Source: a virus | Direction: 5' to 3' (one strand) | IMG/VR virus record: IMGVR_UViG_3300027747_003556 | Span: 1-42,404 of that record | Length of the DNA: 42,404 bases | Part shown: piece by piece, positions 5,066 through 14,983 of the stretch | Numbering within the stretch: the first letter of the stretch is position 1 | Layout of the letters: every line of letters begins with the position of its first letter | Notes under the pieces: model-generated | The model's input: only the letters and a program-made list of their open reading frames with translations | What the model was told of the DNA's origin: nothing | Database searches by the model: none | Program-made: the position numbers and the translations under genes

Positions 5066-6190
5066 TTACTCCGCTTTTCTCCGCCGTTTGCCAGTGTTTG
5101 CCAGGCCATTTGCCGGGCGTGGTTTCAGCTTCGCCACGGCGTTTTCCGCCAGGCTCTTTTGATCGGCGCCGCGGGTGTATTCTTCCTGGCTGGATAGCGT
5201 CTCCCAGCCCATCGCGGCGTTGATCTCCTTCCCCGTCGCGCCGCGCTCCGCCAGCATGGTGGCGCGCAGCTTGCGCAGGCCGTGCAGGTTCAGCCCGGGG
5301 CGCAGCTTCAGCCGGGCCACCTCGGCGCCGATGCGCAGGTTCAGGTATTCGCGCGACCATGGCAGCCCCCGGGCCGAGGTCAGGATCGTCGCGGCCGGCG
5401 TTTCCCGCAGCTTGTTTTCGGCGCGCCAGGCCTCCAGCTCCGCCCGCAGCGCGGTGCTGACCGGCAGGCGCAGCGGCGCCAGGCCCTTCGCCTCTCGCCG
5501 GCGCTTGGTCTTTTCAGGTTGCAGCCAAATGGCGGCGCCGTCGAACGCGCCCCAGGTCATCGTCACCAGGTCGCCGCGGCGCTGGCCGATGTGATACGCC
5601 AGCACAATCGCGCGCCGCGCCGGCTCGGCAAAGTCGCGCATGGCCAGTTCAGCCTCGGCTTCGGTCCAGGCCAGGAAATGCCCACCCGGCAGCGCCTTGG
5701 CGCGGGCCAGGCAACTGTACTCCAGGTGCCCGCGCTCCACGGCCCAACTGAGCACCGCCGACAAGCCAACCTGGAACATATTGGCCGCGCCCGGCCCGTG
5801 CTGGCCGGCGATGGCGTCGCGCAGGTCCAGCAGCTCCGCGCGCTTCAGCCCGGCGGCCTGGCGGCAGCCCCAGGCGGGCACCTCCACAGCGCGCAGGTAG
5901 CGGTCGCGCGCGGCCTTGGTGCGGGGTGCCAGGGCGGCATAGGCGGTAGAGGCGCGCCAGCGGTCCATCAGCCAGCCCAGCGTGCCTTCGGCATACCTGG
6001 CGGCGGCGGTGTTGCGGGCGGCGGCCAGGGCGGCGGCAAAGCCCGGCTCGGTCGGGTCCGGCAGCCGGGTGTTGGTCTGCCGGCAGTACCAGTAGGTAGC
6101 CTGGCTACCGTCCGCCAGCCGGGCGCGTACGGGGCGCACGCCCTTGGGCCTTGCGACCGAGGGCGGCCAGAGCGTCGGCGATTGCGGCAT
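5066..6190 (-). CDS. int: Tyrosine-family integrase
   Basis: A 374-residue site-specific recombinase. The catalytic set is visible: Arg204 in GQRRGDL, Lys in PEKTKR (227-229), HxxR in HGLRKLR (His303, Arg306) and the nucleophile Tyr338 in SSQEEYTRG. The N-terminal part has an arm-binding/SAM-like region (about residues 60-160). I chose ATG 6190 because GGAGG precedes it by 8 bases; an in-frame ATG at 6268 would lie deep inside the upstream Xis-like gene. The first 85 bases overlap that gene. It should integrate and, with Xis, excise the prophage. Confidence 0.92.
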   Translation of the reverse strand: MPQSPTLWPPSVARPKGVRPVRARLADGSQATYWYCRQTNTRLPDPTEPGFAAALAAARNTAAARYAEGTLGWLMDRWRASTAYAALAPRTKAARDRYLRAVEVPAWGCRQAAGLKRAELLDLRDAIAGQHGPGAANMFQVGLSAVLSWAVERGHLEYSCLARAKALPGGHFLAWTEAEAELAMRDFAEPARRAIVLAYHIGQRRGDLVTMTWGAFDGAAIWLQPEKTKRRREAKGLAPLRLPVSTALRAELEAWRAENKLRETPAATILTSARGLPWSREYLNLRIGAEVARLKLRPGLNLHGLRKLRATMLAERGATGKEINAAMGWETLSSQEEYTRGADQKSLAENAVAKLKPRPANGLANTGKRRRKAE

Positions 6191-6443
6191 CTGAGGAGCC
6201 TCCGGCGCCAGCTTCGGCCGCGGGCTGGGCCTGGTCAACGGCGACGGCGCCGGGCCTGCGGGATTCAACCCAGGCGTCCAGGTCTTCCCGCACCCAGCCG
6301 ACGCGGCCGGCAGTCAAGCGGATCGGCGCCACCACGGGCCGCACCTCGGCCCGGAACGTGCTGGGCGACAAGCCGAGGTAGTAGGCTGCGGCCCGTTCGG
6401 GCAGCACGCGCGGCGGCCAGGCAAAGGTGGCGCCGTCTGGCAT
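6105..6443 (-). CDS. AlpA/excisionase-like winged-helix protein
   Basis: A 112-residue protein with an MerR/AlpA-type fold in residues 14-62: RVLPERAAAYYLGLSPSTF then a basic wing and GWVREDLDAWVESRR, the usual end of excisionase-like domains. The C-terminal 45 residues are low-complexity Ala/Arg-rich and lie over the integrase start. Location directly upstream of and overlapping int supports a role as the recombination directionality factor. A transcriptional regulator is the alternative. Confidence 0.75.
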   Translation of the reverse strand: MPDGATFAWPPRVLPERAAAYYLGLSPSTFRAEVRPVVAPIRLTAGRVGWVREDLDAWVESRRPGAVAVDQAQPAAEAGAGGSSDAAIADALAALGRKAQGRAPRTRPAGGR

Positions 6444-6446
6444 GGG

Positions 6447-6824
6447 TCAGGCGGGCTCACAGCGCAGCGGCGCGTTGGCCAGTTCCAGCAGCACATCCGC
6501 GTGGCAGGCCAAGCCTGGCGGGCACCAGCAGGCAAGGGGCTTGCCGCGCAACCGCGCGAACATGAGTTCGGCCGCCTGGGGGTCGGCCTCGCAAAGGCCG
6601 CGTATCCATCGGGAATAGAGCGAGACGGCCAACGCATGGGCGTCGGCCCTGTCTCGGGCCTGAAACCGGTCAAGCTGGCTGTCGGTCACCGCCCAGCCGC
6701 CCTGTTCCTGAATGACGCGGTAAAAGTTTCCATCCGGGCCGGGCCGCGCGACGGAAACCGCGCCGGCCGGCAGGCGCCAGCCCTTGGCGCGGCTAAGCTG
6801 GATGCGCTGGGGAAGGTCAACCAT
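6447..6824 (-). CDS. DUF4326-domain protein
   Basis: A 125-residue protein; ATG 6824 follows the upstream stop by one base, which favours it over longer starts. It begins with PQRIQLSRAKGWRLP and ends with LRGKPLACWCPPGLACHADVLLELAN, the two hallmark blocks of DUF4326, including a CxC-type Cys pair plus Cys/His that may bind metal. DUF4326 proteins are common in phages and their biochemical role is not established. It belongs to the leftward early operon, with xis starting three bases after its stop. Confidence 0.75.
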   Translation of the reverse strand: MVDLPQRIQLSRAKGWRLPAGAVSVARPGPDGNFYRVIQEQGGWAVTDSQLDRFQARDRADAHALAVSLYSRWIRGLCEADPQAAELMFARLRGKPLACWCPPGLACHADVLLELANAPLRCEPA

Positions 6825-6825
6825 G

Positions 6826-7053
6826 TCAGCCAACCTCGACTGGAATGCCGACGCGCTGAGTGGCAAGCACCACCACAGCGGCCAACGCGGCGTCGGACAG
6901 CACAATGGTGGTCTCGTGACCGGCCTTCGTGAAAACCAATAGATTGCGTTTCAGCCCGGCATCCCGCACCAGCTGCACCTTGCGGCCATCCTCAAGCAGC
7001 ACGGCCCAGCCTGGCAATTTGTCATCTGCGTCTGGCTTCGTAGTGTTGTTCAT
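6826..7053 (-). CDS. Hypothetical protein, 75 aa
   Basis: I chose ATG 7053 because it overlaps the stop of the upstream 54-aa gene (ATGA) and has a GGGGGG run about 8 bases before it. The product is hydrophilic at its N-terminus and then strand-rich (GWAVLLEDGRKVQLVRD; LVFTKAGHETTIVLSD), ending in a hydrophobic helix. It looks like a small beta-alpha domain. No family recognised. Confidence 0.6.
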   Translation of the reverse strand: MNNTTKPDADDKLPGWAVLLEDGRKVQLVRDAGLKRNLLVFTKAGHETTIVLSDAALAAVVVLATQRVGIPVEVG

Positions 7054-7214
7054 GTATCGCCCCCCAGCCGAGCAACCAACGCAAAGCATGCCGCGGCGCC
7101 AGCTTCCAAGCATGCGGCTAGCGCATGCAGGGCGTTGCCCGTTTGGTGCAGATTCACGGCGCTGACCAACGCCGCGACGGCAAGCGGCGCGGCGGGGATG
7201 TAGAAAGCGCGCAT
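7050..7214 (-). CDS. Small hydrophobic protein, 54 aa
   Basis: ATG 7214 is in a TGATG overlap with the upstream gene, and its stop is in an ATGA overlap with the downstream gene, so coupling supports translation. The product (MRAFYIPAAPLAVAALVSAV... with a second Ala/Leu-rich helix) is mostly apolar with two possible membrane helices. No family recognised. Confidence 0.55.
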   Translation of the reverse strand: MRAFYIPAAPLAVAALVSAVNLHQTGNALHALAACLEAGAAACFALVARLGGDT

Positions 7215-7615
7215 CACGCCGCCCTCCCTTGCCGCGCCGGCAGGTCCAGCGGCGCCAGCAGCGCGCGCATGCGGGTTGCGGCGCCGGGCAGGGCAGGGAT
7301 GCGGCCCATCAGGTGCCGCGCCACCTTGGCGGCGGCTTCCTCAGCCGTCGCGCCGCGGTAGTGGTCTGGCGGCGAACCGCCGCCGCAGGGCACGCCGTCT
7401 GGCACCCCTGAAAGATCGTAGCTGAAGCTGGCAAACCAGCATGTGTGGTCCGGCGCCTGCACCACGGAAACTCGCAACTTGCGGCCGGCTCCGCGGTCGT
7501 AGGCGACCACCGGCCGGGCGTCCGCTATCAACTGCGCGCGCATCCAGTCCGGCAGCAGGTGCGGCCAGCGCCCACCGCCCGAGGTGCTGAACAGGGAAGG
7601 GTGGGCGTCAGGCAT
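7214..7615 (-). CDS. Hypothetical protein, 133 aa
   Basis: A 133-residue soluble protein. The central part is strand-rich (RPVVAYDRGAGRKLRVSVV; CWFASFSYDL). The C-terminal half has an Ala-rich helix (TAEEAAAKVARHLMG) and a basic tail. No motif allows a functional call. Its stop overlaps the start of the 54-aa gene (TGATG), and it lies 24 bases after the cupin stop in the same leftward operon. Confidence 0.6.
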   Translation of the reverse strand: MPDAHPSLFSTSGGGRWPHLLPDWMRAQLIADARPVVAYDRGAGRKLRVSVVQAPDHTCWFASFSYDLSGVPDGVPCGGGSPPDHYRGATAEEAAAKVARHLMGRIPALPGAATRMRALLAPLDLPARQGRAA

Positions 7616-7639
7616 GGGGCACCTCGGTTGGGTTTCTCA

Positions 7640-8131
7640 TCACCCGCACCCCACGCCAACGCCGCCCTTGTCGCGGCTGTCCACAAACTCCTGCCAGGGC
7701 CGCCAGCCCTGCGGGCAGTGGAAGCCCCAGTCCCGCACCCGCGGGCCGCACAGGAACATGGTGGTAACCGGCTGCAGCCCGGTTGGCGCGGGCAGTAGCT
7801 CCACGCGGTGCGGCGTCTCCGCGTCGCGGCTGATCGTCTCGCCCTGGCAGCGCATCAGCGCCACGCCGCCCGGCAGGTGTTCCAGGTAGCTGCCATCCAA
7901 CAGAATGGACGTGCTGGCATAGGGGTGGTCGTGCAGCGCGCGGTCGTCGTCGCTGCGCAGGAAGTGGTGCACGTAGATCCCGGGTCCGTCGCCGCGCGGG
8001 GTCAGGTGCCAGCGCAGCAGATACGGGTTGTCGGTGCCGCCGATGATGAAATCCGGCGGCGCCAGCATGGCCAGGTGCGCCAGGTGCAGCATGTTGCGGC
8101 GCTGCGGTTCGGCAATCAAGTTGCTCATCAT
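7640..8131 (-). CDS. Single-domain cupin-like protein
   Basis: A 163-residue protein with a cupin metal site: HDHP (His67, His69), a Glu about 15 residues on (Glu84, in SYLEH) and a later His108 in the second cupin block (ETPHRVEL). The start sits in an ATGATG run overlapping the upstream stop. Cupins bind Fe or Mn and may act as dioxygenases or small-molecule binders; nothing in the sequence fixes the substrate. A cupin in a temperate phage early operon suggests a host-interaction or anti-defence role, which is inference. Confidence 0.7.
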   Translation of the reverse strand: MMSNLIAEPQRRNMLHLAHLAMLAPPDFIIGGTDNPYLLRWHLTPRGDGPGIYVHHFLRSDDDRALHDHPYASTSILLDGSYLEHLPGGVALMRCQGETISRDAETPHRVELLPAPTGLQPVTTMFLCGPRVRDWGFHCPQGWRPWQEFVDSRDKGGVGVGCG

Positions 8132-8418
8132 TCCCCCTTCGCGCTGTCGCGCAGGTGTTGCAGCCGGCGGTCCCCGGCCAGGGTGCGGCGGGCGCGCAGC
8201 ACGCGGCGCCCGGGGTTGTCCACGCTGAGGCGCGCGGGCAGGTGCAGGATGGTGCCGCCCTCGGCCTGGCCGAGTTCCAGCACCTGCCGCGCCAACCAGA
8301 AGTCCTGCATGGTCGGCAGCAGCAGGTCGGCGCCGGCGGGTATCGGCCAGCCTTCCAGGCGGGGCAGCGGCGCGGCGTAGAAGCCGGGCAGGGCGGCCAG
8401 CAATTCCAGTTCAGTCAT
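8128..8418 (-). CDS. Hypothetical protein, 96 aa
   Basis: ATG 8418 overlaps the upstream stop (ATGA) and its own stop overlaps the cupin start. The frame stays open upstream to 9279, but that extension is a shadow of the upstream gene. The product is a mixed alpha/beta protein with a basic C-terminus (RRVLRARRTLAGDRRLQHLR). No family recognised; the basic tail would suit nucleic-acid contact. Confidence 0.55.
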   Translation of the reverse strand: MTELELLAALPGFYAAPLPRLEGWPIPAGADLLLPTMQDFWLARQVLELGQAEGGTILHLPARLSVDNPGRRVLRARRTLAGDRRLQHLRDSAKGE

Positions 8419-9380
8419 GCTGCGTGCCTCTCGCGCAGCGTCTCGCGCCGCAGCCGTTCCACCTCTCTCGCGGGCATGCGGAACTGTGTGGCCATGCGCA
8501 GAATGTCCGGCGTGACCTTGGCCTGCGTCGCCTCGCGCAATGCCGCCCGCACCTGGTCGGCGCGCTGGGCCAGCCGGGCGTCCACCTCCTCCGGCGGCAG
8601 GACTGCCGGCGGGGCAAGGGCGGCGGCTGGCTCGGCTGCCCGCGCCGGCGGCAACGCCCGGCTGGGCCGGCGCTTGCGCGGCTTGGCCGCCGGTGCCGGG
8701 CGTGGCTTCGGTGGGGTGGAGGCGGCGCGCTGGGCGTTGCGTGCCTGCCGCAGGGCCAGCAGGCGTTCCGGGCTGGCGGGCGCCAGCAGGCCCAAGGTGC
8801 GGGCCTTCAGGTGCACCGCGTGGCCAGACATCACCGGCAAGCCCTGCAGCGCGTTCACCGCGGCGTGCAGCGCGCCCCAGTCGTTCAGCCCGGTGCGGGA
8901 AACGCGGGCGCGCAGCAGGCTCAAACGCGCCGCCGACCACTTGGCCAAATGCTGCGCGTTGCCGCTGGCCGCGATGGCGTCCTCTGGCGGCCCCGGCAGC
9001 TTCAGCGTGCGTGCCCAGGCCTTCACCTCCTCCAGCTTGCTGAAGGGGCGGCCGGGCAGGGCATTCAGCGTGGCCAAAACCTGCCGAAAACTCAGCCCTG
9101 CGGCGCGGCCTTCGCGCAATGCCGCTTCGCGGTCGGCGGTGCGGCAGACGCTGTTGGGGCTGCGGGCGCCGCCGCTGCGCGGGCGCCGCAACCCCAGCGC
9201 GGTCGCGCGGTTTTGCAGCCCAACAACGGAAAAAATGGGCTTCTTGGCCGGCAGCCTGTTCGCCTCGGCCAGCAGCCAAACCAGGTCGGCGGTGGTGTAA
9301 TGCTGGGCCAGCAGCGCATCCCGCGCCGCGGTCCAGGTACCGGGCTTGTAGCTGCGGGGGGCGGCGGCGAGCTCAGTCAT
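8415..9380 (-). CDS. Multi-module SANT/GcrA-like DNA-binding protein, 321 aa
   Basis: The N-terminal 200 residues look like three tandem copies of one small helical module: one opening WTAARDALLAQHYT and closing ALGLRRP, a second closing TLKLPGP, and a third opening WSAARLSLLRARV and closing TLGLLAP. The pattern of Trp, a long helix, a middle helix and a basic end resembles SANT/Myb and GcrA-type helical DNA-binding domains. A Pro/Ala/Lys linker (about 215-260) joins a C-terminal helical part. It is the largest unknown of the leftward operon. A transcriptional or nucleoid role is inferred from the repeated fold. Confidence 0.65.
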   Translation of the reverse strand: MTELAAAPRSYKPGTWTAARDALLAQHYTTADLVWLLAEANRLPAKKPIFSVVGLQNRATALGLRRPRSGGARSPNSVCRTADREAALREGRAAGLSFRQVLATLNALPGRPFSKLEEVKAWARTLKLPGPPEDAIAASGNAQHLAKWSAARLSLLRARVSRTGLNDWGALHAAVNALQGLPVMSGHAVHLKARTLGLLAPASPERLLALRQARNAQRAASTPPKPRPAPAAKPRKRRPSRALPPARAAEPAAALAPPAVLPPEEVDARLAQRADQVRAALREATQAKVTPDILRMATQFRMPAREVERLRRETLRERHAA

Positions 9381-9486
9381 GGAACACCTGCGCCGCCAGC
9401 AGCATCGCGGCGCCCAGGCCGGTGCCGGCCGCCAGCAAAGCCAGCCGATCGACCCAACTGGCGGGGTGGAATGCGCGCGGGGTCAT
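9373..9486 (-). CDS. Tiny membrane protein, 37 aa
   Basis: The product is MTPRAFHPASWVDRLALLAA... with one Ala/Leu/Gly-rich helix long enough to span a membrane. ATG 9486 overlaps the upstream stop (ATGA), and its stop lies inside the start of the 321-aa gene. Support is only the tight coupling and topology. Confidence 0.45.
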   Translation of the reverse strand: MTPRAFHPASWVDRLALLAAGTGLGAAMLLAAQVFHD

Positions 9487-9812
9487 GCCGGCGTCACCAC
9501 CGCGCGCAGCGGCGCCAGCTGGGCCGCCTGGCGGATGGCCTGCTGCAAGCCGCGCTTCAGATCCTTCGCCAGAAGCATGGCCTCCGGCAGGTCCAGCAGC
9601 GTCTCCACCTCCATCGGCCCGGTATTCAGCCGCAGCCGCACCCAGGGCCGGTTCTGCAGCACCTGCGATTCCAGTTCATCGGCCAGGGCGGCCAGCCCTT
9701 GGCCGTCCAGCTGCACCATGAAGGACAGCCACCCGCAGAAGGCGTGCAGGTTGACGAAGGGCTTGCCATTGGCCGCCACCTCGGCATCCACCGTGAAGGC
9801 CAGCTTGCTCAC
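9483..9812 (-). CDS. Hypothetical protein, 109 aa (GTG start)
   Basis: I chose GTG 9812 because it forms a GTGA overlap with the upstream stop; the open frame continues to 10265 only as a shadow. The product starts with strands (KLAFTVDAEVAANGKPFVNL), continues with a mixed region and ends in an amphipathic helix (AMLLAKDLKRGLQQAIRQAA). Not recognised. Confidence 0.55.
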   Translation of the reverse strand: MSKLAFTVDAEVAANGKPFVNLHAFCGWLSFMVQLDGQGLAALADELESQVLQNRPWVRLRLNTGPMEVETLLDLPEAMLLAKDLKRGLQQAIRQAAQLAPLRAVVTPA

Positions 9813-10366
9813 GCGAAGCACTCCACGGCGCCGTCCAGCAGGCGCAGCACGGCATCTGTGCGAATGCGGTTGGCCAGCGGGCCATGCCGCAGGCTTTCCG
9901 CCAGGGCGCGAAGGTGCCGGTCGTCGTACCCGCAGTTGGTCGCGGCCAAGGCAACCTCGGCCGGGGTCAGGGCGCGCCATTCCTCCCCGCGGCAGCAGGC
10001 CAGCAGCGCGGTGCGGATGTAATCGGCCTCGATGCCGTATTGCCGCAGCAGGGGGCGGAATGCCGCGGGCTGGTCGAGGACCCAGCGGAAGTCGATGCGG
10101 CGGGCGTGCGGCGGCGCGGTCGGCTCCGGCGGCGTGGCGGCGGGCGGGGCGGCGAAGCGCTCGGCGGCGGCGCGCAGCGTTTCCGCCAGCGCCACCAGGC
10201 GCATGCGGCCGTGGCCGGAGGCCAGCAGCGCGCTGTCGGCGGCCAGCGTGTCCAGCGCGGCGCAATGGGCGCGCATCACCTCGGTAACGCTGGCGCTGGC
10301 GCCGGCCAGGTGCAGCGCGGTGACGTAGCAGGCCGCGCGGGTGGGGGCTTCGGTCTGGGCGTTCAT
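9809..10366 (-). CDS. Hypothetical helical protein, 185 aa
   Basis: Mostly alpha-helical by composition, with a Pro-rich break near residues 72-88. The C-terminal half contains CCRGEEWRALTPAEVALAAT and a Cys near the end. ATG 10366 overlaps the upstream stop (ATGA). No family recognised. It is the second gene of the leftward early transcript. Confidence 0.6.
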   Translation of the reverse strand: MNAQTEAPTRAACYVTALHLAGASASVTEVMRAHCAALDTLAADSALLASGHGRMRLVALAETLRAAAERFAAPPAATPPEPTAPPHARRIDFRWVLDQPAAFRPLLRQYGIEADYIRTALLACCRGEEWRALTPAEVALAATNCGYDDRHLRALAESLRHGPLANRIRTDAVLRLLDGAVECFA

Positions 10367-10695
10367 GGCGCGTTCACCACCAGGTTGCCCGGCAGGCGCA
10401 CGCTGACGCGCAACACCACGGCGTCGGTCACGTCGCGTTCCAGCGCGTCCTGGGCGTCGTGCAGGTCCATGGGGGTGCTGTTGCTGGCCAGCACTTCCGC
10501 CAGGTGCCCGGCAATGCCCAGCGCCAGCATGACCTCCACCGGAGTGAACATGCGGGCCAGGGCAGGGCCGGCGTCCCGCAGGGCCAGCACGGCGCGGGCA
10601 ATGGCCAGGACGTCCGCCGCTTCCTGCGTCGGGTTGGGGTCGCCTTGCGGCGGGGTGGTGAGAGGTTGAAGGGATGGCACGGGATGTTCCCCCAT
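10363..10695 (-). CDS. First gene of leftward early operon, 110 aa, unknown
   Basis: The frame opens at GTG 10719, but that codon lies between the predicted -35 and -10 of the leftward promoter. I therefore take ATG 10695 (MGEHPVPSL...), about 5-8 bases after the predicted transcript start and without a Shine-Dalgarno. The product has a Pro-rich N-terminus, an Ala/Leu helical middle (VLAIARAVLALRDAG; VEVMLALGIAGHLAEVLA) and a strand-rich end. By position it is analogous to immediate-early left-arm genes. Function unknown. Confidence 0.6.
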   Translation of the reverse strand: MGEHPVPSLQPLTTPPQGDPNPTQEAADVLAIARAVLALRDAGPALARMFTPVEVMLALGIAGHLAEVLASNSTPMDLHDAQDALERDVTDAVVLRVSVRLPGNLVVNAP

Positions 10696-10708
10696 CGGTT
10701 GATGGGGT

Positions 10709-10738
10709 AACGTAGCCACAGGCTACTTATTCGGTCAA
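10709..10738 (-). promoter_or_regulatory. Leftward early promoter (PL-like)
   Basis: On the minus strand, -35 TTGACC (10738-10733), an 18-base spacer and -10 TACGTT (10714-10709). Operator O1 covers the spacer and part of the -10, and O2 lies 8 bases upstream of the -35. It has the same architecture as the rightward promoter at 11245-11274. Confidence 0.65.
10712..10726. promoter_or_regulatory. Operator O1
   Basis: A perfect palindrome GTAGCC-ACA-GGCTAC overlapping the -10 and spacer of the leftward promoter. It is one of four matching sites around the repressor gene, and binding here would block RNA polymerase. Confidence 0.75.
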
Positions 10739-10746
10739 GCGAAAGT

Positions 10747-10761
10747 GTAGCTTCAGGCTAC
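10747..10761. promoter_or_regulatory. Operator O2 (overlaps repressor stop codon)
   Basis: GTAGCTTCAGGCTAC, matching O1/O4 with one imperfect arm. Read on the minus strand, its bases encode the last residues of the repressor (Val-Ala-stop). Centre-to-centre distance to O1 is 35 bp. Confidence 0.65.
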
Positions 10762-11172
10762 TTTGCGACTTTTCGCCCCACGGGTGCGCTTGGGTGGCGG
10801 GGTTTGTTCCTCCGGCATTGCCACCGCTGCGGGTGCGCTTGCCTGCAACAAGGTTAGGACCGCTTGCCTGACACCCGGCGCAGCTGAGCGCATGAGGCGG
10901 AGCACTTCCGTCTCCTCGGTGTCTTCCAGGTGGATCGCCTCATCGGCCCCTTCAGCAAGCCAGTCCAGCTTGACGCGGTAGTACATGGCCAGAGCCCTTA
11001 GACTTTCGCGCGAGGGAGCCTTCTTGCCGCTTTCCCACTCCGAAACAGTCGGACGCGAGACACCTACGGCTTCTGCTACCTCTGATTGGCCCAGCTTAGC
11101 GTGTTCCCGTAGTGTTCTCAAGCGCCCAGGTAGGCTTTTGGTCTCAAGTGGCAGTTTCGATTTTCGAGCCAT
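10753..11172 (-). CDS. CI-like XRE-family repressor without autoprotease domain
   Basis: A 139-residue protein. The HTH at residues 15-75 (LRTLREHAKLGQSEVAEAVG / VSRPTVSEWESGKKAPS) is a textbook XRE fold. The rest is a short helical region (LRLMRSAAPGVRQAVLTLL) and a basic tail. There is no S24/LexA-type domain, so RecA-driven self-cleavage is not expected. GAAGGGGA precedes ATG 11172. Four palindromic operators flank the gene, two on each side, so it most likely represses both early promoters. Its own promoter could not be identified. Confidence 0.85.
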   Translation of the reverse strand: MARKSKLPLETKSLPGRLRTLREHAKLGQSEVAEAVGVSRPTVSEWESGKKAPSRESLRALAMYYRVKLDWLAEGADEAIHLEDTEETEVLRLMRSAAPGVRQAVLTLLQASAPAAVAMPEEQTPPPKRTRGAKSRKVA

Positions 11173-11220
11173 CGTGCAAGTCCCCTTCGGGCCAACATGG
11201 CAGGGGCAAAAATCCCATGT

Positions 11221-11235
11221 GTCGCCTGAGGCTAC
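11221..11235. promoter_or_regulatory. Operator O3
   Basis: GTCGCCTGAGGCTAC, one mismatch from the palindrome consensus. It lies 9 bases upstream of the rightward -35, mirroring O2 relative to the leftward promoter, and 48 bases upstream of the repressor start, where it could also affect repressor transcription. Confidence 0.65.
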
Positions 11236-11244
11236 TTTCTGGGC

Positions 11245-11274
11245 TTGCACCGCAACGTAGCTACAGGCTACGTT
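11245..11274 (+). promoter_or_regulatory. Rightward early promoter (PR-like)
   Basis: -35 TTGCAC (11245-11250), 18-base spacer, -10 TACGTT (11269-11274). O4 covers the spacer and -10. The expected transcript start, 7 bases after the -10, falls on the A of ATG 11281, so the message would be leaderless. Confidence 0.65.
11257..11271. promoter_or_regulatory. Operator O4
   Basis: GTAGCTACAGGCTAC; with flanks the symmetry extends to AACGTAGC...GCTACGTT. It overlaps the rightward -10. Centre-to-centre distance to O3 is 36 bp, almost the same as O1-O2. Confidence 0.75.
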
Positions 11275-11280
11275 TCCGTG

Positions 11281-11496
11281 ATGAGCGACATTGTTCAACG
11301 TGCGATTGATAGCGCCGGCGGCGTGGCCAAGCTGGCGAAGGCCGTGGGTGTCAAGCACACCTCGGTGATCGGCTGGCGTGCCCGGGGCGCGATTCCGGCC
11401 GAGCGGGTCAAGCTGGTTGCTGAAGTCACGGGGATCGCGCCGCATCTACTGCGGCCCGATGTGTTCGAGGTGCCGCCAGCCGAGGCGGCAGCGTGA
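11281..11496 (+). CDS. Cro/YdaS-like HTH regulator (leaderless)
   Basis: A 71-residue protein. AIDSAGGVAKLAKAVGVKHT followed by SVIGWRARGAIPAERV is the YdaS/Cro-type HTH signature, with a short Pro/Ala tail. ATG 11281 coincides with the predicted transcript start of the rightward promoter and has no Shine-Dalgarno. By position, divergent from and next to the repressor, it should play the Cro role, competing for the same operators. YdaS family members are sometimes called antitoxins, but no toxin partner is adjacent. Confidence 0.8.
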   Translation: MSDIVQRAIDSAGGVAKLAKAVGVKHTSVIGWRARGAIPAERVKLVAEVTGIAPHLLRPDVFEVPPAEAAA

Positions 11497-11504
11497 TGCG
11501 GCGC

Positions 11505-12053
11505 TCAGTTCACCGGGCGGATGGCCGTGAAGCGGAACAGGAAGTCCGGGTCCTGCATTGCGCCGGCGAAGGTCATGCTGATTTCTCGCAGGCAGTCGTC
11601 CCGATGGGGGCGGAACTCGCCGTCGAAGCTGATGGTTTGGCCGCGCCGCAAGCCCGCGGCCACCGGAAACAGCGGGCTGCCGTGCGGGATCAGGGTGCGG
11701 TCCTGGGTGTCGATGAACTCCACGTTCCAGGTTTGCAGCGTCACCAAGGGGGAAATCCGCACGATCAGGATGCCGTTGCCCGCGCTGGTGCTGTCCAGCC
11801 GTTCCACGGTGCCGACCCAGCCCCGCACGACGCCGCGGGCCGCGTTCATCGTCTCGCAGATTTCGCGCGCCCGCGCGGGCCGCAGCGCACCGCCGGCCAT
11901 GTCGTTCGGCCTGTCGCGGTAGCGGGCCGCGTAGCTTTCCACAATCTGCACCAGGCGCTGTTCCTGCGGCGGCGCGGCCGGTTGAGCTGCCGCGCCAAAG
12001 CCTATTGCAACCAGCAGCAGGGCGGTCCCAACCGCGCGTTGTCCGATACTCAT
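11505..12053 (-). CDS. Secreted/periplasmic protein, moron candidate
   Basis: A 182-residue protein with GGAGGG 7 bases before ATG 12053. The N-terminus is a Sec signal peptide (basic start, then ALLLVAIGFGAAAQ with a likely cut after AAA). The mature part is strand-rich (GWVGTVERLD; GILIVRISPLVTLQTWNVEF) and ends FLFRFTAIRP, possibly an OB-like barrel; family not recognised. It lies on the opposite strand between the Cro-like and CII-like genes, interrupting the right-arm operon. That is typical of a lysogenic-conversion or superinfection-exclusion gene with its own promoter; this role is inferred. Confidence 0.65.
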   Translation of the reverse strand: MSIGQRAVGTALLLVAIGFGAAAQPAAPPQEQRLVQIVESYAARYRDRPNDMAGGALRPARAREICETMNAARGVVRGWVGTVERLDSTSAGNGILIVRISPLVTLQTWNVEFIDTQDRTLIPHGSPLFPVAAGLRRGQTISFDGEFRPHRDDCLREISMTFAGAMQDPDFLFRFTAIRPVN

Positions 12054-12172
12054 CCCGCATCCCTCCATTCCGCCCGCGCATCCTCGCCCCTCCGTGGCTT
12101 CGCTGTCCACCTTGGGTTGAAAGCCGCCGCCCGGCACGAAATTGCCGTTCTCGCAACACTTAGGGCGTGCGC

Positions 12173-12643
12173 ATGACCGCCGGCTCGGCCCTGCCGGAGG
12201 TTGATGCCCGGGCGCTGCGGGTGCAGTGCAAGCTGGCCGTGGCCGGCGTGGGCGGGCCGTACAGCGCCAGCGTGGCGCTGGGCTATGCCAGCCAGGGCAA
12301 CATATCCGCGGCCACCGACCCCAACGACTGGGCCCGCTGGATGCGCGTGGACCACGCGGTGGTGCTGGACAGCCTGGCGCCGCATCCTTTCATCACCGCC
12401 TGCATGGCGCGGCTGCTGGGCTACCAGCTGGTGCGGCTGCCCGCGCCGGCCGCGTGCAGCGTGCGGGCGGTGGGGGAAATGCTGGGCAGCCTGGCGCCGG
12501 TGCTGGCCGCCGCGGCCGTGGCGCTGACCGACCACCGGATCTCGGAAGCCGAGCGCGCCGCCATGCTGCCGCAGCTGGAAGCGGCCATGGCCAGCATCGG
12601 CACCGCGCACGCCACCCTTTCCCAAGCCTGCCTGGAGGACTGA
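12173..12643 (+). CDS. CII-like (CP76-type) phage regulatory protein
   Basis: A 156-residue protein. The layout KLAVAGVGGPYSASVALGY, then SQGNISAATDPNDWARWMRV, a V-D-x-x-x-x-L segment and ITACMARLLGYQLVRLP follows the pattern of the CII/CP76 regulatory family in proteobacterial temperate phages. The rest is a long Ala-rich helix with ISEAERAAMLPQLEAA. ATG 12173 is preferred over GTG 12167; no strong ribosome site is seen. It likely helps set the lysis-lysogeny decision. Confidence 0.6.
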   Translation: MTAGSALPEVDARALRVQCKLAVAGVGGPYSASVALGYASQGNISAATDPNDWARWMRVDHAVVLDSLAPHPFITACMARLLGYQLVRLPAPAACSVRAVGEMLGSLAPVLAAAAVALTDHRISEAERAAMLPQLEAAMASIGTAHATLSQACLED

Positions 12644-12645
12644 CC

Positions 12646-13224
12646 ATGGCCCCGCCCATGCCCGTTGCCGTGCCCGGCGTCTCAACCCCAGGTGGACAAG
12701 CCCCCGCGCTGTTGACGCTGCTGGAGCGGCGCTTCCGTGGCGTTCGGGTGGACCTGCACGGCTGGACGCCCGATGCGGTGCAGGCGCTGCGGGACATGTG
12801 GGCGGAAGGCGTGCCCACCCGCGCGATCGGCCGCGTGCTGGGGTGTGGCAACAACGCCGTGGTGGGCAAGGCGCATCGGCTGAAGCTGGAAGGCCGGGTC
12901 AACCCGGTGACGCAGCTGGCCGCGGCCCGCCCGCCGCGCGGCACCAAGCGCCTGAGCTACGCGGCGCCGGCCCAGGCTCGCCCAGCCCAGCCCCGCCCCG
13001 CCGTCGCGCCGGCTGCGCTGACCACCACCCCCGCCGAGCCGCCCGAGCCGGCCACGCAGTTCCGCCGGCGCGAAGCAGGCGAATGCTGCTGGCCCCTGTG
13101 GGGCATGCAGGAACGCGGCACGCCCGGCTATGGCCGGTTCTGCTGCGCCCCGGCGCCGGGTGGCCAGGCCTATTGCCCGGAACATCGGGCCATCGGCACC
13201 GTGCGCCGGCAGGTGGCGGCATGA
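12646..13224 (+). CDS. gcrA: GcrA-family cell-cycle regulator
   Basis: A 192-residue protein, slightly longer than cellular GcrA (about 173 aa). The N-terminal DNA-binding part (about residues 38-88) reads GWTPDAVQALRDMWAEGVP, IGRVLGCGNNAVVGKAHRLK and EGRVNP, as in GcrA. The C-terminal part has ECCWPLWG and FCC...YCPEH, matching the conserved Cys/Trp-rich sigma-interacting region. GcrA acts with sigma70 RNA polymerase at promoters carrying CcrM-methylated GANTC sites in Alphaproteobacteria. A phage copy could redirect host transcription or drive its own early or late promoters. It starts 2 bases after the CII-like stop. Confidence 0.88.
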   Translation: MAPPMPVAVPGVSTPGGQAPALLTLLERRFRGVRVDLHGWTPDAVQALRDMWAEGVPTRAIGRVLGCGNNAVVGKAHRLKLEGRVNPVTQLAAARPPRGTKRLSYAAPAQARPAQPRPAVAPAALTTTPAEPPEPATQFRRREAGECCWPLWGMQERGTPGYGRFCCAPAPGGQAYCPEHRAIGTVRRQVAA

Positions 13225-13430
13225 GCGTGCGTCACATGCTGGCCGCGGTGCTGGTTGCGCCGCCGCCCCCGGACCAGACGGGCAACCATTCGGACTTCGC
13301 CACGGCCGCCGCGGTTATTCAGGACGTGGCCACCCTGCCGCCGGAGCCTCGCCGCCGCCTGGTGCTGGCCCTGGTCCGGCGCGAGTTCGGCGACGGCGTG
13401 GCGGCCGCGCTGGAAGGGCGGCGGCCGTGA
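13221..13430 (+). CDS. Hypothetical protein, 69 aa
   Basis: ATG 13221 overlaps the gcrA stop (ATGA) and its stop overlaps the helicase GTG. The product is Pro-rich near residues 14-20, then helical (FATAAAVIQDVATLPPEPRR), ending in a basic Arg-rich segment. Position just before the helicase raises the idea of a helicase-associated factor, but there is no sequence evidence. Confidence 0.5.
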   Translation: MSVRHMLAAVLVAPPPPDQTGNHSDFATAAAVIQDVATLPPEPRRRLVLALVRREFGDGVAAALEGRRP

Positions 13431-14983
13431 ACGTGCCCGGCGCCCCCGGCTTCCCCGCCGCGCGCTTCCCCGCGCATGCCTCGCGCCATGGCGAAGGCGT
13501 GGCCGGCATCATCGCGCTGCGCCAGCCGCCGGCCGCGCTGCCGGCCGAACAAGCCCTGCTGGGCGCCCTGCTGGCCAACAACCGCGCGCTGGACCGCGTG
13601 GGCGAGTTTCTCCGCGCGGAGCATTTCGCGGACCCGGTGCATGCGCGGATCTTCACCGCCATCGTCCGCCGGGCCGAGGCCGGGCAGATCGCGGACGTGG
13701 TGACGCTGCGGCCGGAGTTCGAGAATAGCGGCGAGTTGGACCCGGTGGGCGGCCCGGCCTACCTGGCGCAGCTGCTGGGCGCCATGGTCGGCATTATCAA
13801 CGCCGGGCAATACGGCCGGCTGATCCTGGACACCTGGCAGCGCCGCGAGTTGATCGCGCTGGGCGAAGACCTGGTCAACGACGCCTTTTCCCCGGCCGAA
13901 GGCGAGGCCGCCGCCGCCATCATCGAACGCGCCGACGCCGGGCTGATGCTGCTGGGGGAAGGCCAGGCCGAAGCGGCGCTGCTCTCGGCCCCGGCGGTCG
14001 CCAGCCAGGTGCTGGCGGGCATGGAACGCGCCCTGGCCAGCAAGGGCGGCATCACCGGCGTTACCACCGGCTATGCCGGGCTGAACCGCATGACGGCGGG
14101 CCTGCAGGAAGGCCAGCTTATCGTCGCCGCCGGGCGGCCCAGCATGGGGAAGACGGCGCTGGCCCTGGGCGTGGCACTGCGCGCCGCCGCGGCCGGTGAA
14201 TCCGTGCTGTTCGCCAGCGCGGAGATGAAGGCGCGCGGCGTGCTGGCGCGCGGCATCGGCGCCCTGGCCGGCGTGCCGGTGCAGGGCGTGCTGTCCGGCC
14301 GGGTGCCCACGGATGACCCGGAGCGCACCCGCCGGCTGGGCCAGCCCGAGATTGACCGCGTGGTCGCCGCCGCCGGCCTGATGGACAAGCTGCCGCTGGT
14401 CTTCGACGAAAGCGCCGGCCTGACCGTGGAGGCACTGCGCGCCCGCGCCCGCCGCATGAAGCGCACCCAGGGCCTGCGCCTGATCGTGGTGGACTACCTG
14501 GGCAAGATGCGCGGCGGCGACGAGCTGGAGCGCAGCGGCAACCTGTACCTGAAGACCACGCAGATCATCAGCGGGTTGCAGCGCCTGGCGATGGAACTCA
14601 GCGTGCCGGTGCTGTGCCTCTCGCAGTTGAACCGCAGCCTGGAAAGCCGCGACGACCCGCGCCCGCGCATGAGCGACCTGCGCGATTCCGGCGCCATCGA
14701 ACAGGACGCGGACGGCATTTGGTTTTTGTATCGGGAACACTACTACCTCAGCCGCGCCATCCCGAAGCGCCGCGACAAGGAGAAGGGCGAGGATTTCGAG
14801 GCGCGCTATGCCGCCTGGGAAATCGCGCTGGCGAACAGCATCGGTCGCGCGGAAGTGGACGTGGCCAAGCAGCGCCAGGGGCCTATTGGGCCGGTGCGCA
14901 TGCGCTTCCGCGATGAACTGACCTGGTTCTTCGACGACGCCGAAGGCGATGGCGGGCCGGCAGTGCCGGGGCTGTTCGCGTGA
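13427..14983 (+). CDS. dnaB: Replicative DNA helicase, DnaB family
   Basis: A 518-residue protein starting at GTG 13427, inside the previous stop (GTGA). The N-terminal DnaB domain (about 34-140; PPAALPAEQALLGALL) is followed by the RecA-like motor with Walker A GRPSMGKT (236-243), Walker B LIVVDYLG (about 360), LCLSQLNRSLE and MSDLRDSGAIEQDAD, all standard DnaB motifs. It should unwind DNA 5' to 3' at the phage fork. Carrying its own helicase means the phage may not need to capture host DnaB, and the O-like initiator at 15533 could be its loader. Confidence 0.95.
   Translation: MNVPGAPGFPAARFPAHASRHGEGVAGIIALRQPPAALPAEQALLGALLANNRALDRVGEFLRAEHFADPVHARIFTAIVRRAEAGQIADVVTLRPEFENSGELDPVGGPAYLAQLLGAMVGIINAGQYGRLILDTWQRRELIALGEDLVNDAFSPAEGEAAAAIIERADAGLMLLGEGQAEAALLSAPAVASQVLAGMERALASKGGITGVTTGYAGLNRMTAGLQEGQLIVAAGRPSMGKTALALGVALRAAAAGESVLFASAEMKARGVLARGIGALAGVPVQGVLSGRVPTDDPERTRRLGQPEIDRVVAAAGLMDKLPLVFDESAGLTVEALRARARRMKRTQGLRLIVVDYLGKMRGGDELERSGNLYLKTTQIISGLQRLAMELSVPVLCLSQLNRSLESRDDPRPRMSDLRDSGAIEQDADGIWFLYREHYYLSRAIPKRRDKEKGEDFEARYAAWEIALANSIGRAEVDVAKQRQGPIGPVRMRFRDELTWFFDDAEGDGGPAVPGLFA

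Follow-up and report, generated by a model that had tools for sequence, protein, structure and literature searches.

A putative leftward early operon encoding a GcrA-type repeat protein, a cupin, and a DUF4326 protein in a lambda-like temperate phage

Introduction

In phage lambda, CI acting on paired operators represses the leftward (P_L) operon, which leads away from cI, includes numerous small accessory genes, and ends with xis and int. Here, we analyze a block of genes with a similar layout on the 42,404-base virus record IMGVR_UViG_3300027747_003556 (IMG/VR; positions 1 to 42,404, called the window below; 70% G+C). Specifically, eleven tightly packed minus-strand genes, g1 to g11, most of them encoding 37-185 amino acids, extend from 10719 or 10680 to 6447. 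The block is bounded by a CI-type repressor gene (10753-11172) on one side and by an xis-like gene (6105-6443) and then a tyrosine integrase gene on the other. Unlike the lambda operon, the block has no recognized N, recombination genes, or cIII; in their place are a protein with GcrA-type helix-turn-helix (HTH) repeats (g5), a cupin (g7), and a DUF4326 protein (g11). We propose, with a probability of about 0.7, that the block is an early regulation and excision operon in which the GcrA-type regulator, the cupin, and the DUF4326 enzyme form a recurrent core accompanied by orphan cargo genes. The phage is probably lambda-like and temperate, with an alphaproteobacterial host.

Phage GcrA homologues of the ordinary kind are on record, for example, gp222 of phage phiCbK (PMC3556154, in the text available). 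DUF4326 has been proposed to belong to the rhodanese-phosphatase superfamily and to act on ADP-ribose phosphates (PMC9503650 and PMC7824862, available portions), and the first of these sources predicts a place for it in a conflict network centered on NAD and ADP-ribose. Cupins of the g7 type are named cysteine dioxygenase in PMC12446147, PMC8092301, and PMC13222311, where, in the portions available, the name derives from annotation rather than assay. An earlier note on this DNA, made from the sequence alone, held that no gene in the block has an assigned role. That statement does not hold as worded: the cupin has a PHROG label (one that we dispute below), DUF4326 has the published prediction of PMC9503650, and g5 is assignable to GcrA-type HTH repeats.

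The consequence is that ten unknown genes become a testable map: a single operon switch, three recurring proteins that merit biochemical study, and an orphan shortlist for anti-defense screening. If our reading of the repeat protein is true, phages exploit a cell-cycle regulator of alphaproteobacteria in a novel manner. The cupin carries a caution: the "cysteine dioxygenase" auxiliary metabolic gene of several phages is probably something else.

Anatomy of the probable operon

The leftward genes and their control sites are as follows.

11257-11271, unstranded: operator-like site on the cI/cro side, repeat family D1
11221-11235, unstranded: operator-like site with one mismatch on the cI/cro side, repeat family D1
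10753-11172, minus strand: CI-type repressor gene (HTH_3; PF01381, E 1.1e-15), upstream of the operon
10747-10761, unstranded: operator-like site GTAGC-5-GCTAC, upstream of the operon and overlapping the end of cI, repeat family D1
10712-10726, unstranded: operator-like site between a TTGACC -35-like hexamer (10738-10733) and g1, repeat family D1
10363-10719, minus strand: g1, orphan; the longest frame opens at the first GTG, and GTG 10680 is the more likely start
9809-10366, minus strand: g2, orphan, alanine-rich
9483-9812, minus strand: g3, orphan
9373-9486, minus strand: g4, 37 amino acids, possible single membrane helix
8415-9380, minus strand: g5, three GcrA-like HTH modules, a Pro/Ala linker, and a further C-terminal segment
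8128-8418, minus strand: g6, 96 amino acids, with a distant counterpart at the equivalent place in locus L003
7640-8131, minus strand: g7, phage cupin (phrog_4786) with a three-His metal-site pattern (H67, H69, H108)
7214-7615, minus strand: g8, orphan
7050-7217, minus strand: g9, 55 amino acids, possible membrane protein
6826-7053, minus strand: g10, 75 amino acids, orphan
6447-6824, minus strand: g11, DUF4326 (PF14216, E 2.5e-15)
6105-6443, minus strand: xis-like gene (phrog_66, E 9.5e-7)
5066-6190, minus strand: tyrosine integrase gene (PF00589, E 6.2e-13); start uncertain, the longest frame reaching 6268

Genes are present throughout the interval that the earlier note had delimited, although they number eleven and not about ten. 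Read from g1 to g11, the junctions are overlaps of 4, 4, 4, 8, 4, and 4 bases, a gap of 24, overlaps of 4 and 4, and a gap of 1. The tight coupling reported previously is thus real (8 of 10 junctions overlap), but the lengths given for it, 1-8 bases nearly throughout, reduce to 4 or 8 with two exceptions. Long antisense open reading frames also occur on the plus strand opposite the block. In all eleven frames, third-position G+C is 0.71-0.91 versus 0.41-0.60 at the second position, the pattern expected in a 70% G+C genome, and we therefore regard the frames as real genes and not chance. From its sequence, g1 probably starts at GTG 10680, which has GGGGGA 7 nucleotides upstream and leaves both operators outside the gene; GTG 10719, where the longest frame opens, falls within the operator-like site at 10712-10726. 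Position 10695, formerly given as the block's end, does correspond to an in-frame ATG of g1, a less likely start than GTG 10680.

When 10600-11600 was searched for repeats with no pattern specified beforehand, a 25-base element, the D1 family, emerged in four copies at spacings of 35, 474, and 36. The copies form two pairs, one on either side of cI, and one pair lies just upstream of g1. The pattern GTAGC-5-GCTAC, chosen for a window-wide count after the repeat had been seen, occurs with at most one mismatch at 7 sites versus 0.53 expected, and four of these are the pairs flanking cI. The TTGACC hexamer lies between both left operator-like sites, and the promoter was assigned there by eye. In contrast to the lambda system, the 139-amino-acid repressor frame has no recognized peptidase part. 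On the other side of the repressor, the following genes diverge from the block.

11281-11496, plus strand: Cro-like gene (YdaS family; PF15943, E 2.6e-11)
12167-12643, plus strand: CII-like activator gene (phrog_101, E 1.3e-12)
12646-13224, plus strand: phage GcrA homologue (PF07750, E 7.9e-18), between the CII-like and DnaB genes
13130-14983, plus strand: DnaB-type replicative helicase gene (PF03796, E 2.6e-71); start uncertain (longest frame)

The repressor gene thus lies between two operator-like sets, with cro, CII, and replication genes divergent, and xis and int lie at the far end on the strand of the block. No N-like gene was recognized in the family scans; boxB was not sought. Because the operator-like pairs, the divergent Cro, CII, GcrA, and DnaB genes, and the xis-int end coincide, we conclude that the block very probably has the anatomy of a lambda-type P_L early operon. 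The gene families and junctions bear out what the earlier note had said about the block's position (here, between the repressor with its operators and xis-int), its operon structure, and its phage context, and the anatomy suggests an early, repressed character.

The notion is that, in the prophage, repressor bound at the left operator pair would silence the operon. On infection or induction, one early message would run through the block together with xis and int. The g5 protein would retune early transcription or occupy promoters of the GcrA/sigma70 type, g7 would act as a metal-binding cupin enzyme of the recurrent core (its fold is predicted), and g11 would act on a nucleotide or ADP-ribose derivative, as the published prediction has it. 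The other eight genes would be fast-changing cargo, a natural place for host-takeover or counter-defense functions.

A GcrA-type repeat protein

The g5 protein had been described as a triple-module DNA-binding protein, and comparison of its modules upholds the three-module reading. Modules 2 and 3 are related (z 5.9), and modules 1 and 3 more weakly so (z 4.3; 2 of 500 shuffles as good); between modules 1 and 2, no relation was detectable (z 1.0; 82 of 500 shuffles as good). To compare the modules with known families, we used a profile consisting of the three window modules, two from the related protein of locus L003, and modules from L053, L134, L168, and L237. Aligned with seven GcrA HTH segments, this profile gives an hhalign probability of 96.1% (E 3.5e-9). 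In a profile search of the PDB, GcrA is again the best match, a weak one (E 0.25), and Pfam GcrA matches the L003 protein at E 3.0e-5, below the curated cut-off. At the level of sequence profiles, homology between the g5 modules and the GcrA HTH is shown. Since g5 carries GcrA-type HTH modules, it probably binds DNA.

With GcrA (PF07750) and its phage homologues, phiCbK gp222 among them (PMC3556154, available text), g5 shares an HTH module that starts with W-T and ends with L-G-L, a phage-borne gene, and a place in an early region. Its three modules and long Pro/Ala linker set g5 apart, and the Cys-rich C-terminal part of GcrA is not seen in it. The whole protein falls below the Pfam cut-off and so lies outside the full-length GcrA family. 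Scans of viral contigs with the single g5 protein and with a two-sequence g5 profile yielded no confirmed relative, and the annotated phages contain no match to the window g5 or to the g5-like proteins of L003 and L294. Module matches occur in 21 of 299 genomes from the family of Roseomonas (Pararoseomonas) indoligenes.

Our search of open-licence papers turned up no phage early operon described as encoding GcrA-type HTH repeats. One could speculate that g5 represents a hitherto undescribed family of early phage regulators that arose when the DNA-reading module of GcrA, an epigenetic regulator of alphaproteobacteria, was duplicated into tandem arrays. Beside the phage GcrA, such a protein would let the phage seize or compete for host promoters read through methylation (CcrM/GcrA/sigma70) as infection begins; the cupin and DUF4326 proteins would be its partner enzymes. 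We regard this full scenario as rather unlikely. Avoidance of GANTC was considered as a sign of CcrM and set aside: the whole window has 31 sites versus 81 expected, but CANTG, TCNGA, and CTNAG are equally depleted, so the GANTC depletion is not special.

A cupin unlikely to be a cysteine dioxygenase

The g7 protein matches phrog_4786 over its full length and has all of the invariant residues in the alignment that we made. Searches for relatives confirmed 476 in viral contigs and 132 in genome contigs, of which 80 were kept in each case, and the family is present in 94 of 50,697 phage records. The early regions that contain it are varied. The closest viral-contig relative among the 80 kept is in L003 (62% identity). 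The AlphaFold2 model of g7 is confident (pLDDT 90.9) and predicts a cupin fold. H67, H69, and H108 are invariant across 46 sequences and form a three-His HxH...H sequence pattern of a metal site; other invariant residues include Y37, R40, Y53, H55, D61, D63, R64, E84, R109, R133, W135, and F137.

Were the cupin a true cysteine dioxygenase (CDO), the block would include a sulfur-metabolism auxiliary metabolic gene, which is what papers on phage IPK (PMC12446147) and on M. abscessus prophages (PMC8092301) suggest in the portions available. That reading has the PHROG label in its favor (cysteine dioxygenase, E 7.6e-50), as well as the top Foldseek match of the model, which is the cysteine dioxygenase of B. 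subtilis (E 4.6e-6). The three-His pattern suits it too, as does an invariant arginine 27 residues ahead of the first metal-site histidine, near the position of CDO Arg60. In a second structural comparison, however, dozens of cupins tie at Z 10-11.5. None of 47 cupin-family members matches the CDO_I family (PF05995) at E ≤ 0.5, and when nine cupin-bearing genomes were searched with CDO_I, it picked five other genes and never the cupin. Alignment of the phage family with these five CDO_I proteins reaches an hhalign probability of 2.4%, which is insignificant; in that low-probability alignment, Phe and Thr/Cys face the invariant His and Tyr of the catalytic S-x-H-x-Y of CDO, so that the His-x-Tyr pair is apparently not conserved. 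We consider a genuine CDO very improbable. We conclude that g7 is a predicted metal-binding cupin of the three-His type and probably not a CDO.

The surroundings of the cupin vary. A common gene directly upstream was sought at 82 loci, where the neighbors differ and no partner is shared (two further loci have no upstream stretch). A sulfur link through phosphoadenosine phosphosulfate (PAPS) reductase was likewise discarded, with no match near the cupin at 160 loci, using a profile from a 211-amino-acid piece of L084 that may miss distant ones. MT-A70 and GapR genes lie near cupins (22 and 31 of 160 loci) somewhat more often than near DUF4326 (3 and 5 of 80), and GcrA-like matches recur close to cupin loci. 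In L012 (3956-8611) and L168 (7956-11155), the cupin sits in a rightward-type operon with CII, GcrA, and DnaB genes. Its presence in operons of this type also suggests that the cupin moves between early operons.

DUF4326

The g11 protein scores 57.3 bits against PF14216, for which the cut-off is 25, and it holds all 14 residues that are invariant across 48 DUF4326 sequences. As in many phages, the domain stands alone. The g11 model is confident (pLDDT 93.0). Searched against a viral structure library, it retrieves DUF4326 proteins (best E 5.1e-9); weaker matches are a DUF2493 protein (E 0.003) and a protein annotated as NADAR plus tyrosine phosphatase (E 0.05). No PDB structure matches at E ≤ 0.001, and the best Z there is 3.1 (HicB). 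Set against the proposed rhodanese-phosphatase membership, the PDB fold list for g11 contains neither rhodanese nor protein phosphatase, a result that excludes nothing. Following the published prediction, g11 is probably an enzyme acting on a nucleotide or ADP-ribose derivative. With a confident fold and no clear match among solved structures, g11 is a good target for crystallography.

Recurrence of the proposed core

Other loci repeat parts of the arrangement. The order in L003 is g5-like, g6-like, ParB-like, cupin, further small genes, DUF4326, xis, and integrase. In L056, a g5-like gene overlaps the cupin by 4 bases and is followed by a small hydrophobic protein, at a place like that of g9, and by xis; Cro, GcrA, and DnaB genes diverge. 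Two loci were found in host-family genomes via the g5 modules alone: L294 has the window order (repressor cI, g5-like, DUF4326, xis, integrase), and L297 has its mirror image (g5-like, DUF4326, int), with DnaB, GcrA, and Cro divergent. In L292 and L299, g5-like and DUF4326 genes share a strand.

From the 21 genomes with a module match, we examined 16 g5-type stretches, namely, the 15 best new ones and the already known L168. Another phage-type marker (integrase, xis, cI, Cro, CII, DnaB, GcrA, DUF4326, or cupin) accompanies g5 in 13 of the 16; L301, L304, and L306 have none. Among the 299 host-family genomes, DUF4326 occurs in 19 and the cupin in 7. Eight genomes hold both a g5-type gene and DUF4326 (hypergeometric 6.8e-6, which partly reflects prophage load). 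Between 22 g5-type sites (a count that leaves out three extra modules at G223 and G238) and 25 DUF4326 sites, four pairs lie within 5.1 kilobases, and one pair is 28.6 kilobases apart. For an assumed five to one prophages per genome, roughly 0.4-1.8 close pairs would be expected. Given four, an association between g5 and DUF4326 is likely, not overwhelming. The cupin and DUF4326 occur together in 9 of 164 loci, several of which are near-copies.

Weighing the interpretations

Several observations weigh against the early operon with a recurrent core. A consensus sigma70 promoter scan of the control region found none, and thus the left promoter is putative; moreover, the operator-like site at 10747-10761 has an alternative reading as a weak terminator-like hairpin. 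The window g5 alone has no Pfam match at E ≤ 1 and no PHROG match, and Pfam GcrA matches just 2 of 15 g5-family members (best E 0.0025). In L056, the resemblance to g5 is weak, the module profile giving E 0.013. The core proteins co-occur only in part: DUF4326 is present in 4 of the 16 g5-type stretches and the cupin in 1. Finally, the cupins of L012, L168, and L237 do not belong to a P_L-type operon; their neighbors are CII, GcrA, DnaB, or other genes of replication type.

Alternatively, the block could be an early island for counter-defense and host takeover, in which most of g1 to g11 would each block host defenses or host proteins. Its position and its small, variable, mostly orphan genes fit such an island, as do the predicted role of DUF4326 in NAD/ADP-ribose conflicts (PMC9503650, available text) and the presence of the cupin and DUF4326, jointly or singly, in the early regions of many phages. 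Yet the libraries scanned gave no match to a known anti-defense family for any gene, g5 has the look of a regulator, and xis and int share the operon. PADLOC gave no match at E ≤ 1 for 10 proteins (all but g4), though its library consists of defense systems and not counter-defense genes. We see the island as possible but doubtful in this general form, while host takeover or counter-defense by individual cargo genes is a plausible hypothesis. About as tentative is the idea of a regulatory or replication module, in which g5, with the phage GcrA and CII, would time early transcription or replication, assisted by the small proteins as accessory factors. The GcrA-type HTH modules of g5 point in this direction, and g5-like genes lie in early regions with a GcrA gene in L293, L295, L296, L298, and L307, adjoining or overlapping it in the last four. 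A module of this kind leaves the cupin, DUF4326, and the orphan proteins unexplained, and the DNA binding of g5 is itself a prediction. That the genes serve lysogenic conversion, being expressed from the prophage to alter host behavior, seems very unlikely to us. Their accessory, variable content and the possible small membrane proteins would suit conversion; nonetheless, the operon begins right behind the operators of the repressor, and it is coupled to xis and int, which would harm a lysogen if steadily expressed.

Orphan genes and minor observations

For g1-g4, g6, and g8-g10, library scans including Pfam, PHROG, PADLOC, and NCBIfam (g4 in none of them, g9 not in Pfam) gave no significant family. 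Homologues with housekeeping or structural functions, which the earlier note had named as grounds for abandoning its view, turned up for no gene. Scans of viral contigs with g2 and g3 found nothing, and in the 299 genomes, g2 has only weak, composition-like matches (E 1e-4 to 1e-3, in 7). Its Pfam DAO match (E 0.0014) and those to Pfam MmeI_C and DUF5753 and NCBIfam NF003092 are below cut-off and were not used. The g6 protein aligns with its L003 counterpart at a score of 60 (z 6.7; 0 of 1,000 shuffles as good) with weak identity. Comparison of the small proteins of L292, L294, L299, and L056 with g1-g4, g6, and g8-g10 gave nothing above z 3.

Two tiny membrane proteins had been reported in the block, and g4 and g9 are indeed there. 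Both are only moderately hydrophobic, however, and g10 nearly equals them (best 19-residue Kyte-Doolittle means: g4, 1.75; g9, 1.82; g10, 1.73).

Outside the block, a minus-strand orphan at 11505-12052, between cro and CII, has a signal-peptide-like start and no Pfam or PHROG match. Judged by its sequence, it is a candidate lysogenic-conversion or exclusion gene.

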